Shown: positions 15,732-21,300 of the stretch, one piece after another
Numbering within the stretch: the stretch's first letter is position 1
Layout: each line of letters begins with the position of its first letter
NCBI GenBank assembly: GCA_028823235.1
Contig: JAPKBW010000003.1
Location: 1-64,000 of the forward strand
Reading direction: 5' to 3'
Length of the DNA: 64,000 nt
DNA from: Longimicrobiales bacterium
GTDB lineage: Bacteria > Gemmatimonadota > Gemmatimonadetes > Longimicrobiales > Gaopeijiaceae
Made by a program: the position numbers and the translations under genes
Notes under the pieces: generated by a model
What the model was told of the DNA's origin: nothing
Seen by the model: the letters and a program-made list of their open reading frames with translations, nothing else
Database searches by the model: none

Positions 15732-16010
15732 TTTTCGCTACCTCCGATGGAGTGTATGGCGAGCACCTTCCGGCACTCATCAATAAAAAAGCCCGAGACA
15801 AGTCTCGGGCCGCAACCGGGATAGACGGACGGAGTCATGCTCCGGGCGTCGACCCCTGCGACCCTCATGTCGGCCCCTGAGGAGCCCTGAAGGTGGAGCC
15901 GCCGGTCACTGCGACTCACTTCCTGATTTTCGCCCACCCGAGGGTGGTCTAAAAAGATGCTCCGAGAGGCGGCCCGGGTCAACGCCCAGACCATCTCTCG
16001 AACATTCTCT
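15732..16010 (-). promoter_or_regulatory. Long infC leader region
   Basis: 279 bases between thrS and infC without a recognisable protein. It contains a short hairpin (CCACC/GGTGG near 15935-15950), runs of GGGG and CCC that could pair in more than one way, an intrinsic terminator 54 bases before the infC start, and the infC ribosome-binding site GGAGGT. Such a layout is typical of attenuated ribosomal-protein leaders. No strong promoter could be assigned by eye. Confidence 0.5.
15785..15810 (-). terminator. Intrinsic terminator in the infC leader
   Basis: On the minus strand, a perfect nine-base stem (GCCCGAGAC with GTCTCGGGC) is followed directly by TTTTTT. It lies about 200 bases after the thrS stop and 54 bases before the infC ATC. 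It either ends thrS transcripts or acts as an attenuator for infC-rpmI-rplT. Confidence 0.85.
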
Positions 16011-17933
16011 TCAACCGAGCGCCTTCGTCCCGATCTCATCCGTGATAAGCGCAATGAAGTCCTCACGACTCATGACTTCCTGCTTCTTGCCCGCACCCCG
16101 TTTCCGCACCGCGACGGTGCCGTCTGCGGCTTCGCGCTCTCCGACGACCGCCATGTAGGGGATTTTCAGTGTTTCGGCCTCGCGAATCCGATATCCGAGA
16201 GTCTCGCGAGATTCGACTGTAACCCGGGCGCCAGCTGCGACGAGCGCGGCCCGTAGCTCCTGCGCACTGGCGTCCCACTGCTCACCTACTGGCATCACGC
16301 GAACCTGCTCAGGTGCAAGCCATGTTGGGAATGCGCCGCCATAGTGCTCGATTAGCCCGCCAACGAACCGCTCCATGGACCCGAGCAGCGTTCGATGTAT
16401 GACCACGGCGTTGTGACGCTCGTTGTCCGACCCAACGTACTGGAGCCCGAAACGCTCGGGCATAAGGAAGTCGAGCTGGAACGTGCCACCCTGCCACTCC
16501 CGCCCGATCGCGTCGACCACATTTACGTCGATCTTGGGTCCATAGAACGCTCCGCCACCCTCTTCCTCGACGTAGTCCATGCCGCGCCGCTCGAGCACAT
16601 CCCGGAGTGTCTCCGTCGCCGCGTCGTATACCACAGGGTCTCCGATCGCCTTCTCGGGCCTGGTACCCAACGACACGTTGTACTCGTAGCCGAAGATCTT
16701 CAGCAGGTAGTCTGCCAAGTCCAGAAGCTTGTCATACTCGACTCCGATCTGATCCGGACGCACGAAAATATGCGCGTCGTCCTGGGTGAAGCACCGGACA
16801 CGAAGCATTCCGTGGAGCGCGCCCGAGCGCTCGTAGCGATAGCAGGTCCCGAGTTCCGCGAAACGGAGCGGGAGATCACGATACGAACGGGTCTGTGTCT
16901 TATAGATCATGAAGTGATGAGGACAGTTCATGGGCTTCATGCGGAAGCGCGTGCCCTCATCCTCCATGACCGGGAACATGTTGTCTTCGAACACCTCAAG
17001 GTGGCCCGAAATCTTGTAAAGCTCTTCACTCGCGATCTGCGGAGAGTACACCAAATCATACCCATGGCTCAGGAGCGTATCCTTCAGGAACTCCTCGACC
17101 GTGTGGCGGATGATGGCGCCCCGCGGGTGCCAAAGAATGAAGCCCTGCCCGATCTCTTCCTGGATTGAGTAGAGGTCAAGCTCCTTTCCCAGCACGCGAT
17201 GGTCGCGTTTCTTGGCTTCCTCAAGACGATTCAGATGCTCTTCGAGCGCCCCCTTCTTGTGGAAGGCAGTCCCGTAGATGCGCTGCAGCATCTGCCGCTT
17301 CTCGTCGCCTCTCCAGTACGCGCCCGCGCCTGAGAGCAGCTTGAAGTGCTTCAGCTTCCCGGTACTCGGCACATGCGGCCCTTTACACAGGTCCAGGAAA
17401 GGGCCGTTTTCATACACCGTGATGACTTCGTCGTCATCGAACTCTTCGAGTCGCTCCAGCTTCAGCGGATCATCACTGAACAGTTCGCGCGCCTCGGCCT
17501 TGTCGACCTGTCGTCGCTCAAACGGCTGATCCGCCTTGATGACCTCGCCCATCTGCTTCTCGAAGGCGGCCAGATCCTCCGGGGTAAACGGTTCATCCAC
17601 CTCGAAGTCGTAATAAAAACCTTCGTCGATCGCCGGCCCGAAGCCGATCCCTGCGCCCGGTCGCAGTTCGCGCACCGCCGTCGCGAGGATATGGGCGGCC
17701 GAGTGACGGAGCACCTCGAGAGTTGCCGGATCCCTTTCGGTCAGAATCGAAATGGTCGCATCGCCCTCGATGGGCTCCATGAGGCCGATCGTCTCGCCGT
17801 TCACGACCGCCGCGACGGCAGCCTTTGCGAGGCCCGGTCCAATGGATGCAGCGACATCACCACCGGTCGAGCCATGAGGGAGCTCGAGGACGTCGCCGTT
17901 GGGGAGTGTGATGCGGATGTGTTCGCTGGACAT
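16011..17933 (-). CDS. thrS: Threonine--tRNA ligase
   Basis: Charges tRNA-Thr and clears Ser-tRNA-Thr. The 640 residues carry the N-terminal TGS domain (about 1-65). The editing domain follows, with HSAAHILATAVRE and a second-site FCxxGPHVPSTG-like segment (FLDLCKGPHVPSTG). The class II core has zinc ligands in MNCPHH, motif 2 RFAELGTCYRYERSG and motif 3. The C-terminal anticodon-binding domain starts near residue 540. The leader contains a threonine-codon attenuator with a terminator (18004-18134), so its expression probably responds to charged tRNA-Thr. Confidence 0.98.
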   Translation of the reverse strand: MSSEHIRITLPNGDVLELPHGSTGGDVAASIGPGLAKAAVAAVVNGETIGLMEPIEGDATISILTERDPATLEVLRHSAAHILATAVRELRPGAGIGFGPAIDEGFYYDFEVDEPFTPEDLAAFEKQMGEVIKADQPFERRQVDKAEARELFSDDPLKLERLEEFDDDEVITVYENGPFLDLCKGPHVPSTGKLKHFKLLSGAGAYWRGDEKRQMLQRIYGTAFHKKGALEEHLNRLEEAKKRDHRVLGKELDLYSIQEEIGQGFILWHPRGAIIRHTVEEFLKDTLLSHGYDLVYSPQIASEELYKISGHLEVFEDNMFPVMEDEGTRFRMKPMNCPHHFMIYKTQTRSYRDLPLRFAELGTCYRYERSGALHGMLRVRCFTQDDAHIFVRPDQIGVEYDKLLDLADYLLKIFGYEYNVSLGTRPEKAIGDPVVYDAATETLRDVLERRGMDYVEEEGGGAFYGPKIDVNVVDAIGREWQGGTFQLDFLMPERFGLQYVGSDNERHNAVVIHRTLLGSMERFVGGLIEHYGGAFPTWLAPEQVRVMPVGEQWDASAQELRAALVAAGARVTVESRETLGYRIREAETLKIPYMAVVGEREAADGTVAVRKRGAGKKQEVMSREDFIALITDEIGTKALG

Positions 17934-18002: not shown

Positions 18003-18036
18003 AAAAAAACGCGGCGCCCGTGGTTCGGGGGCCGCG
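18003..18036 (-). terminator. Attenuator terminator upstream of thrS
   Basis: On the minus strand, a GC-rich stem (CGCGGC at 18010-18015 with GCCGCG at 18031-18036, then one mismatch and three more pairs) is followed by seven T residues. It lies 24 bases after the stop of the Thr-rich leader peptide and 70 bases before the thrS ATG. Its 5' arm overlaps sequence (18020-18032) that could instead pair with the G-rich segment inside the leader ORF, as expected for a transcription attenuator. Confidence 0.9.
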
Positions 18037-18059
18037 CCTCAGTCCGGTTTCAGCTCAAG

Positions 18060-18134
18060 CTAACCGACAAGCACAGCCCCCCACCCAGTCTCCCGGGTGG
18101 TGGTCGTCGTGGTCGTTCGGCAAGCGTTCACCAT
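18060..18134 (-). CDS. Threonine-rich leader peptide of thrS
   Basis: A 24-codon ORF. It starts MVNACR, continues with seven consecutive threonine codons (18096-18116, mixed ACG and ACC), then RETGW and a short tail to TAG. A GGAG lies just upstream; spacing is short for the ATG and better (five bases) for the adjacent GTG, so either may start it. Eight of 24 residues are Thr. The Thr codons form part of one arm of a hairpin with the following G-rich segment. This is the organisation of amino-acid attenuators such as thrL of E. coli, here placed before thrS. Function is inferred from layout. Confidence 0.88.
   Translation of the reverse strand: MVNACRTTTTTTTRETGWGAVLVG
18076..18104 (-). promoter_or_regulatory. 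Alternative hairpins of the thrS attenuator
   Basis: On the minus strand, ACCACC of the threonine codons continues into CCACCC (18095-18100), which can pair with GGGTGG (18081-18086) to make a pause hairpin. The G-rich arm (18076-18086) can instead pair with GCCCCC and CAC at 18020-18032, which would open the terminator. A ribosome stalled on Thr codons would favour the second state. The pairings were read by eye and energies were not computed. Confidence 0.8.
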
Positions 18135-18153
18135 TTCTCCATTGCTGGTGCGA

Positions 18154-18339
18154 TCACACGATGGGGAGAGCGACGGAGGCGGTCAATGGCGCTGACCGGA
18201 GTTCAGGCCGCGAGCACCCCCGTGGCGCCCAGCGATCAAGCGAAGGCCACAGCCCAAACACCAACCCGACCAGGAACACGATTACTGCGACCCACGTGAT
18301 CAGCCAGAGAAACAGAAAGGGTTCCACTAGGAACGTCAT
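18154..18339 (-). CDS. Possible small membrane protein
   Basis: A 61-residue ORF beginning 21 bases after the stop of the Asp-box protein gene, with GGGGGG about ten bases before the ATG. Residues 8-31 form one clear hydrophobic segment (FLFLWLITWVAVIVFLVGLV). The remaining half is basic and without character. I recognise no family. It overlaps the region where the thrS leader transcript might start, so either it is a real cotranscribed gene or the hydrophobic frame is chance. Confidence 0.4.
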   Translation of the reverse strand: MTFLVEPFLFLWLITWVAVIVFLVGLVFGLWPSLDRWAPRGCSRPELRSAPLTASVALPIV

Positions 18340-18360: not shown

Positions 18361-21300
18361 TCATCCTCCGCGCTGAGGGGGCGCGACAGGATCCGGCAGT
18401 TTCGGCATCGCGGCGGCCGTGTAGCCCAGAAGAAGAAGGGTCGGCACGGTGCCGGTCAGCGACTGGTTGATGCGGCCGATGACGGCCGGCGCGGTATCCC
18501 ACGAGTGTTCGATCATCCAGAGTTGGTCTGCAGACGCCGGGCCCGTGACAGATTGGATCGCTCCCCAGATTCCCGCCCCGAGTGAAGCCGCGTCGAGATC
18601 GTCGGCCAAAACGTCGAGTTCTTCCCGTACTGTGGCGATCTGACCATTAATGGCCTCGTCATCTGCCGAGACGAGAGCCTCCAGCTCATCGACTGCATCG
18701 CGCATCGCATCGACGGCCTCCTCAGCATCTGACACTGGACCGGACATTCGGTACGACTCCAGCATCGCCAGATAGCGTGTCCGCATGGGACGACGTGCCA
18801 GTTCGACGCGCGGATCGAGTCGTACCACGACCTCCGTCTGCACTACATCTGTCCCCGTCGCCAACTCCACGAGATACGTGCCCGGCATCACCCGGGGGCC
18901 CGGATCCATCGCATTGCCATTGGCATCGTCCTCAACCAGGCGGAGGTCCCAGATGACCTCGTTGAGGCCCGAGCTACCCGGTGCGTCGAGTTCCCGAATC
19001 GCCCCGCCGGTCGCACTTTTGACCCGTAAAGTGAGGTCGTCCACCGAAGTAGCGAGGTGATAGCGAATTCTGGCTCCCGCGCGTGGGTTCGGCGCGGCGT
19101 AAATACCGGGGGTCCAGCCCTGTGGATTATAGGAGTTGTACGATGTGGCCCTGCGGATCGGAAACAGAAACGCGTTGGCGGCAACCGCGCCCGCATCCAG
19201 ACGCTCGAGCGGGGTAATGTCCTCCATGATCCAAACACCGCGCCCATGCGTACCGAGGACGAGGTCGTTTTCTCTGGGGTGAATCTTTATGTCATCAATC
19301 GGGACCGTCGGAAGATTGTTCTTCATCCTGACCCAATTCTGACCGGCATCCGCGGAGACGTAGACACCCATTTCATTTCCGGCGAACAGCAGGTTCGCCT
19401 TGTCGGGGTGTTCCGTCAGGGCGCTTATGGGGGACATGGGGAGGCCCGAAGTCATCGGCTCCCAATCCTGGCCGGAATTCTCGCTGGAGTAGATGTATGG
19501 ATTGAAGTCATCGTTGCGGTGTCCATCAAAAACGATGTGCACACGGCCCGCGGCCTCCCCTGACACAACGATTCGAGTCACGTAGGTGAACGCCGGGAGG
19601 TCTTCAAACCGATCCGTGATATCCGTCCACGTGGCTCCACCGTCGCGGGTCACGTGTACGCGCCCGTCGTCAGAACCCGTGTAGATCAGGGCGGCATCTC
19701 GTGGCGACTCACCGATTGCAGTGAGGTTGCCGTAGGACGACTGTCCGTCGTTGCGGGACATCTGAGGCGTGCCGCCGACGATGCCCATGATCGGGAGTGT
19801 GTCTCGGTCGATCGCCCACGTGAGATCAGGACTGATCGGCTCGAACGAATCACCCAAGTCAGTCGACTTGTAGAGCACGTTCGACCCGATATACACGGTG
19901 TTGTCGTCGTGCGCAGAGATCAGGACCGGTGTGTCCCAGTTCCAACGAGGATCCTGGCGTTCGCCGTCCGGATCGAATCGAGCGGTCGGGCGACGACGAG
20001 CACGCTCCATGGAGATGAGATCGACCCGGCTCAGATTGCCGCCCTGCGACTCCGCGAGCATGACGTCGGGGTTGGTCGGGTGCATGACCGTAAAGAAGCC
20101 GTCCCCACTGCCTACGTTGTACCAGTCGCGCGCGCGAATCCCCTGGTTTGACCAGGTGTCCGACGGGGCACACCAAGACCCGTTGTCCTGCAGCCCTCCG
20201 CAAACGTGATACGGGTCGCGCATATCGATGCCGACCTCGTAGAGCTGAGCAAGTGGGAGATTCCTGAACTGATACCAGTTGTCGGAGCGATCCCAGCTTA
20301 TCGAGACCCCGCCGTCGCTCCCGAGAATCAGGTGGTCCGAGTTCCCAGGGTTGATCCACAACGCATGGTGGTCGAGATGGACGCCCTCGGCCGCGTCATT
20401 GGTGAACGACCGCCCCCCATCGCTTGTCCGAAACAGGTCGGAACCACCCAGATACATACGCTCCGGGTCGTTGGGGTCGATACGAATCTGGGAGTAGTAC
20501 ATGGGTCGATTGTTCGTCGTGGACCTCTGTTCCCAGCTCTCGCCACGATCCGTCGAACAGTACACGCCGTTTTGCACCTGATCACCCTGAGGCGCGGCGC
20601 CGCGACCACCCGGACCCCGAGCATCCGCCTCTACGAGGGCGCAGACTAGGTTCCCGTCACGGCGATAGATGTCGAGCCCGATCCTTCCCATATCACCGTC
20701 CGGCAGCCCGTTCGACATCTCAATCCAGGAGGCTCCGCCGTCCGTCGTCCGGTAGATGCCACTCCCGGGCCCGCCACCGTTGTACCCCCATGCCTTCCGC
20801 TGGCGCTGATACATGCCGACGAAGAGGGTCTGTGGGTCATTCGGGTCCATCGCCATATCGATGGCACCGGTGTTGTCATCAATGTAGAAGACGTGCTCCC
20901 AGGTCACACCTCCGTCGGTCGTCTTGTAAACGCCGCGCTCCGGATTTGAGCCCCAGAGGTGCCCCATCGCCGCGACATAGGCGACGTCGGGGTTTCTGGG
21001 GTGCACCGCAATCCGGGAGATATGGTGGGTGTTCTCAAGCCCAAGGTGCGTCCAGGTGCGCCCTGCGTCCGTAGTTCGGTAGACACCGTTTCCCCATGGC
21101 GAACTCTGCCGGTTCTGAGGCTCTCCTGTACCCACCCACACGACGTTCGCGTTCGAGGGGGCTACCGTGACATCCCCCACGGACGAGGTGACTTCATTGT
21201 CGAAAATCGAGGCGAAGGTGATGCCGGCATTTTCCGTCTTCCAGATTCCACCCGTTGCCGTCCCTACGTAGAAGACAGAGGGGTCACTCTCCACCACGGC

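Follow-up and report, generated by a model that had tools for sequence, protein, structure and literature searches.

A close described counterpart of the leader reported here is thrL of E. coli (Rfam RF00506, Thr_leader), in which a Thr-rich leader peptide senses charged tRNA-Thr and a choice is made between a terminator and an antiterminator. It controls thrABC and not thrS, and belongs to the Pseudomonadota, whereas the present leader lies in the Gemmatimonadota. Short ORFs with cognate codons and a terminator, as found here, also precede aminoacyl-tRNA synthetase genes, and pheST of E. coli is controlled by a leader attenuator. Attenuation of amino acid and aminoacyl-tRNA operons was reportedly treated by Lopatovskaya et al. 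in 2010, who may already list a thrS or a Gemmatimonas case. Leader-peptide attenuators have been predicted for trpS and leuS of Streptomyces (PMC1262725), and hisS of Bacillus has a leader attenuator (PMC2965389). These systems concern other amino acids and other phyla, and the present leader is likened to them by arrangement, not by similarity of leader sequence. A survey of 2010 stated that, until its own case of hisS in Bacillus, leader attenuators had been shown in no group but the Pseudomonadota and Actinomycetota (PMC2965389). A candidate leader need not work as predicted: in ilvB of Streptomyces coelicolor, mutation of the leader codons was without effect (PMC1262725).

According to a preliminary description of this DNA, no Thr-leader-peptide attenuator was known to be described for a thrS in this kind of organism. 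This was nearly right, except that in Streptomyces lividans a thrL located before thrS has been proposed as a Thr attenuator (PMC8079986). That leader has 2 Thr codons among 18, a leaderless start and no U-rich terminator, whereas the leader described below combines 7–8 Thr codons with a strong terminator and an antiterminator and is supported by comparison with relatives. Among the papers found, none combined a Gemmatimonad with a leader peptide and attenuation. The mechanism is classical ribosome-mediated attenuation and is not new; what appear to be new are a strong thrS case and a class-wide set of such switches in the Gemmatimonadota.

The leader of thrS in the window (the whole stretch of 64,000 nucleotides that was analysed) is very probably a ribosome-mediated (leader-peptide) transcription attenuator sensing the supply of charged tRNA-Thr. 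Its parts are given in Table 1. The 24-codon ORF with seven consecutive Thr codons and one more, ending 24 nt before a hairpin with seven T residues, was recovered on the minus strand as first described; the eighth Thr codon is at 18089–18087. The thrS start, placed about 70 bases past the terminator, lies 69 nt downstream of the U-tract (ATG at 17933). Its product contains TGS, tRNA_SAD, catalytic and anticodon domains. The pairing that had been drawn at the Thr codons exists as the core of hairpin 1:2. An alternative pairing that breaks the terminator also exists as claimed, but its extent had to be corrected: it is longer, with 18081–18069 pairing with 18039–18027 over 13 contiguous pairs (–27.8 kcal/mol). 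Two features were added to the preliminary description, a possible GTG start at 18131 and a conserved promoter just upstream of the leader ORF. The in-frame GTG may be used rather than the ATG because GGAG is only 2 nt from the latter; the match of a covariance model built from relatives also begins at 18131. The promoter-like motif is TTGACC-N17-CATCGT (18186–18158, minus strand). A simple sigma-70 scan of the window leader returned no promoter, and the conserved motif emerged only from the comparison of relatives.

Table 1. Parts of the thrS leader and their coordinates in the window
Feature	Position	Strand	Support or remark
Promoter –35 element TTGACC	18181–18186	–	TTGAC(C/G/T) recurs 5' of nearly all 22 thrS leaders
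Promoter –10 element CATCGT	18158–18163	–	CATCGT, CATCCT or TAGCCT equally spaced in relatives; RNA start expected near 18151
Shine-Dalgarno-like GGAGA	18136–18140	–	Sequence; GGAG to ATG 2 nt, GGAG to in-frame GTG (18131) 5 nt
Leader ORF MVNACRTTTTTTTRETGWGAVLVG, 24 codons	18060–18134	–	Thr-rich counterpart in 21/110 order-level thrS upstream regions
Seven consecutive Thr codons (sensing site, also part of segment 1)	18096–18116	–	Sequence; Thr enrichment
Hairpin 1:2 core, 18100–18095 with 18086–18081 (CCACCC/GGGTGG)	18081–18100	–	Folding; helix in 15 relatives
Segment 2, antiterminator 5' arm, in the 3' part of the leader ORF	18069–18081	–	13 pairs with 18039–18027
Segment 3, common to antiterminator and terminator	18027–18039	–	Pairing and comparison
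Intrinsic terminator hairpin 3:4, CGCGGCCCCCG-AACCA-CGGGCGCCGCG	18010–18036	–	Sequence; paired over 15 relatives
Terminator U-tract, T7	18003–18009	–	Sequence
thrS, threonyl-tRNA synthetase, 640 aa	16011–17933	–	TIGR00418 equivalog, 668.6 bits (cut-off 383.65)

The locus thus contains a run of cognate codons (7 + 1 Thr in 24) and a terminator between leader and gene. It also contains an antiterminator exclusive of that terminator, the 5' arm of which would lie under a ribosome that had reached the stop codon, and a protector hairpin 1:2 that overlaps the sensing codons. The gene that would be controlled, thrS (TIGR00418), matches the amino acid sensed. From an active promoter, transcription would begin some 17 nt upstream of the leader ORF, with a ribosome trailing the RNA polymerase. 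With plentiful Thr-tRNA, the ribosome would get to the stop codon and cover segment 2; hairpin 3:4 would then pair and transcription would stop in the U-tract after about 150 nt. With scarce Thr-tRNA, the ribosome would stall at the Thr run and mask segment 1. The pairing 2:3 would then form before segment 4 was made, no terminator would appear and thrS would be transcribed, which is the predicted response to threonine starvation. Coupled transcription and translation are predicted in the Gemmatimonadota.

In E. coli, ThrRS governs its own expression (PMC2965389). Autogenous control by ThrRS bound to its own leader, with an incidental short ORF, is conceivable here too, and a putative operator might lie in the 69 nt that separate the terminator from thrS; in an operator of the E. 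coli type, tRNA-Thr-like hairpins overlap the start region of thrS. Such control is nevertheless improbable, for it leaves the seven Thr codons, the terminator and the antiterminator unexplained, as well as the leaders with other codon runs found before hisG and DAHP synthase (see below).

The Thr run, the folding of the leader and the 2:3 pairing exceed chance. Runs of at least six consecutive ACN codons occur at 6 places only in the 3.14-Mb window genome. The other five are either out of frame in or against larger genes (three) or part of open frames 104 and 193 codons long (two). The window leader folded better than all 200 shuffles (z = –3.2). Pairing 2:3 reached –18.1 ± 2.7 kcal/mol in dinucleotide shuffles, and the window value was matched by 0 of 300. 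Since a gene ends at 18361 on the same strand, 5' of the leader, and Thr codons are GC-rich, the hairpin could be imagined as a mere 3' terminator of that gene, with a Thr run due to chance in GC-rich DNA. This is very hard to credit: the conserved promoter separates that gene from the leader, a row of six ACN codons is rare in the genome, and the Thr-rich ORF, a stop-to-hairpin distance of 21–32 nt in thrS leaders and the pairing of segments 2 and 3 are found again in three families. A chance Thr run was ruled out by the genome-wide ACN count and the per-residue controls given below.

The RF00506 model gave no match in the window leader up to E = 10, and no Rfam model matched these Gemmatimonadota leaders. 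In Firmicutes, thrS is under terminator-ending T-boxes. There the gene, the signal (tRNA-Thr charging) and the output (termination or read-through) are the same as those proposed here; the difference lies in a direct contact of uncharged tRNA-Thr with the leader RNA, by which the terminator is blocked. A T-box at this locus is very unlikely. The T-box model (RF00230) failed to hit the window at its gathering cut-off, and a search of the leader relaxed to E = 10 gave no T-box either. At about 150 nt, half of which are the ORF, the leader is also short, and like leaders with His, Tyr or Phe codon runs precede genes of those pathways.

The closest named relatives of the window genome are for the most part MAGs of the Gemmatimonadota. 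Upstream regions of thrS (n = 227) were then compared; the window's own order supplied 110 of them, the other orders of its class 40, and the remaining 77 were mostly from other phyla. A terminator-like hairpin was present in 104. Where a short ORF ended 0–60 nt before the hairpin, Thr residues were counted in 8 codons. At least 5 Thr in 8 codons were found in 20 of the 104 terminator-bearing regions, and 4 in one more. Other residues reached 5 of 8 in 0–6 of these regions each (Gly 6, Arg 4, the remainder 0–1). All 21 Thr-rich leaders belong to the window's order (21/110 regions, at least 13 genera, three families); outside the order, a Thr-rich leader was found before thrS in 0 of 117 regions (40 from other orders and 77 mostly from other phyla). 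Further thrS leaders comprise two weaker ones (G001, G004) and one found later (G046). The promoter spacer is 17 nt in 20 of 22 thrS leaders (range 16–18 nt), and the –10 sequence is CATCGT, CATCCT, TAGCCT or similar, with one clear exception (G016). Three thrS leaders start 6 nt past the –10 element and may be leaderless. The leader is absent from most sampled genera of the window's family. The promoter and a degenerate terminator persist in the genus mates G072 and G096, where the Thr ORF is lacking; G066, likewise devoid of a Thr ORF, has retained a promoter-like motif; and in genus g8 thrS directly follows the upstream gene. One record titled Gammaproteobacteria (VXNP01000141.1, L005) carries a thrS 71% identical to that of the window; its title is probably wrong.

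An antiterminator was found in 22 of 22 thrS leaders, at p ≤ 0.05 against shuffles in 14. The stretch that pairs best with the 5' arm of the terminator is located, in all 22, in the leader's 3' half or directly beyond it. The antiterminator arm starts at about nt 50–57 in most, with extremes at nt 37 and 74. Covariation was counted on 15 leaders of the window's family only, because MAFFT misaligned segment 2 in distant members. Hairpin 1:2 was 94.4% paired with a covariation score of 0.433, which 0 of 500 shuffles attained. For terminator 3:4, 95.9% of cells were paired, and the covariation was reached by 9 of 500 shuffles. The 2:3 helix was best in register (74.3% paired, against 36–59% when slid). 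In these 15 leaders it is conserved, yet without covariation beyond column shuffles, which may be expected because the segment is tied to the codon sequence and to two partners.

In the folding computations, the ribosome occluded the RNA as far as 13 nt downstream of the first base in its A-site codon. The terminator probability of the window RNA was 0.97 without ribosome and 0.98 once a ribosome had reached the stop codon. With a stalled ribosome it was 0.48 at Thr codon 1 and 0.02–0.00 at Thr codons 2–7. Leaders G099, G041, G082 and G137 gave a similar outcome for the majority of Thr codons. At equilibrium, 3:4 still prevails in about half of the relatives when the ribosome is stalled; those leaders must therefore depend on 2:3 forming before segment 4. 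When segment 4 had not yet been made, 2:3 was favoured in the stalled state in 21 of 21 leaders tested. It was favoured without ribosome too in most, so that no firm prediction follows for untranslated leaders. In the nascent-RNA folds, the hairpin 1:2 core was partly compatible with 2:3.

The preliminary description had proposed to look in relatives for a conserved Thr-rich ORF and for compensatory changes in both alternative hairpins, and to fold the two states. The thrS upstream regions of relatives indeed keep the Thr-rich ORF, an antiterminator in the same place and the terminator (21/110 at the order level). Compensatory changes were seen in hairpins 1:2 and 3:4; the 2:3 helix did not covary beyond shuffles. 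For the window RNA, the terminator probability flips with ribosome position as the mechanism demands. The anatomy, the relatives and the folding states support the four-segment attenuator logic that had been read in front of thrS.

A covariance model of the thrS leaders (R1) was run over the order. Beyond thrS, it matched Thr leaders before aspartokinase, His leaders before hisG, and Phe/Tyr leaders before DAHP synthase and prephenate dehydratase (pheA), the genes being assigned by Pfam. A second model (R2), built from 14 mixed leaders, retrieved about 100 elements in 69 of 142 genomes of the order and had matches in 88 of 395 genomes of the phylum. The leader residue was chosen without reference to the downstream gene. 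In counts that are not to be taken as probabilities, because leaders related by descent are not independent, this residue was His before hisG in 42 of 43 cases in the order and 6 of 6 in other families of the class, and Tyr or Phe before DAHP synthase in 17 of 17 (one more without ORF call) and 3 of 3, respectively. It was Thr before aspartokinase (5/5, one more without ORF call), Tyr before phenylalanine hydroxylase (4/5) and Phe before prephenate dehydratase (3/5, with Phe codons present in the remaining two). In other families of the class, the expected residue was on top in 18 of 20 elements; the remaining two have YY or YFY and precede phenylalanine hydroxylase. Over 84 elements, the antiterminator arm started at leader nt 46–64 (5–95%) with a mean z of –2.2.

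Leader ORFs are able to act in other ways (PMC4833913), and a real short ORF with a terminator might work through Rho control or translation re-initiation and not through codon-specific stalling. For the thrS leader, this has very little likelihood: the terminator has a strong U-tract, and in many leaders the codons agree with the pathway of the downstream gene. We lean slightly towards the broader view that the class regulates much of its amino acid metabolism by one shared attenuator module whose codon run was exchanged in evolution (Thr, His, Tyr, Phe, Asn). Its targets would include some without such control in the papers found, namely thrS with a long Thr run, phenylalanine hydroxylase with Tyr and asparagine synthase with Asn. 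Attenuation has so far been described mainly in Pseudomonadota, Actinomycetota and a few Bacillota, and appears here to be widespread in a little-studied phylum. Leader codons are a simple readout, from DNA, of the amino acid sensed and can help to assign gene function in uncultured bacteria. The way in which attenuators switch specificity becomes a testable question, since leaders that resemble one another but serve different amino acids occur within a single lineage.

Several individual leaders were recorded. His-rich leaders (HHHHH) precede hisG in many genera of the class (L276, L277, L294, L299, L300 and others). A leader with Thr and Ile codons (L271, G001:C3:111846-111995) precedes a homoserine-kinase-like GHMP kinase, in the manner of the E. 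coli thr operon. A single NRNRNRN leader before asparagine synthase (L377, G036:C617:9093-9236) is a possible Asn attenuator. The model hit L370 (G078:C57:4344-4486), in which a Met-rich ORF precedes ketopantoate hydroxymethyltransferase, is possibly a false match.

In the window genome, R2 found one more good element (L317, G000:C31:15590-15733, E = 3.5e-4). It consists of a Tyr-containing leader, MITMQCYAADFYYRAPRPMGSPGEISR, and a terminator before a biopterin-dependent aromatic amino acid hydroxylase (phenylalanine hydroxylase-like). hisG was not found in this genome (97% complete), which suggests that the usual route to histidine is closed to the organism; as a consequence, no His leader is expected there.

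Control of the whole thrS-infC-rpmI-rplT-pheST cluster by the thrS leader was considered and is unlikely, because infC has its own promoter-like motif and a strong terminator follows thrS. The interval between thrS and infC (window 15982–15785, minus strand) contains the promoter-like TTGACC-N17-CATCTT (15982–15954) and the strong terminator GCCCGAGACTTGTCTCGGGC followed by T6 (15810–15785, minus strand). It gave no Rfam match above gathering. The infC-rpmI-rplT genes seem to form a separate unit with its own leader, perhaps a ribosomal-protein attenuator. In window 15740–15614 (minus strand), infC seems to begin with a rare codon, perhaps ATC near 15732, that follows GGAGGTAGCGAAAA; a rare start codon is typical of infC.
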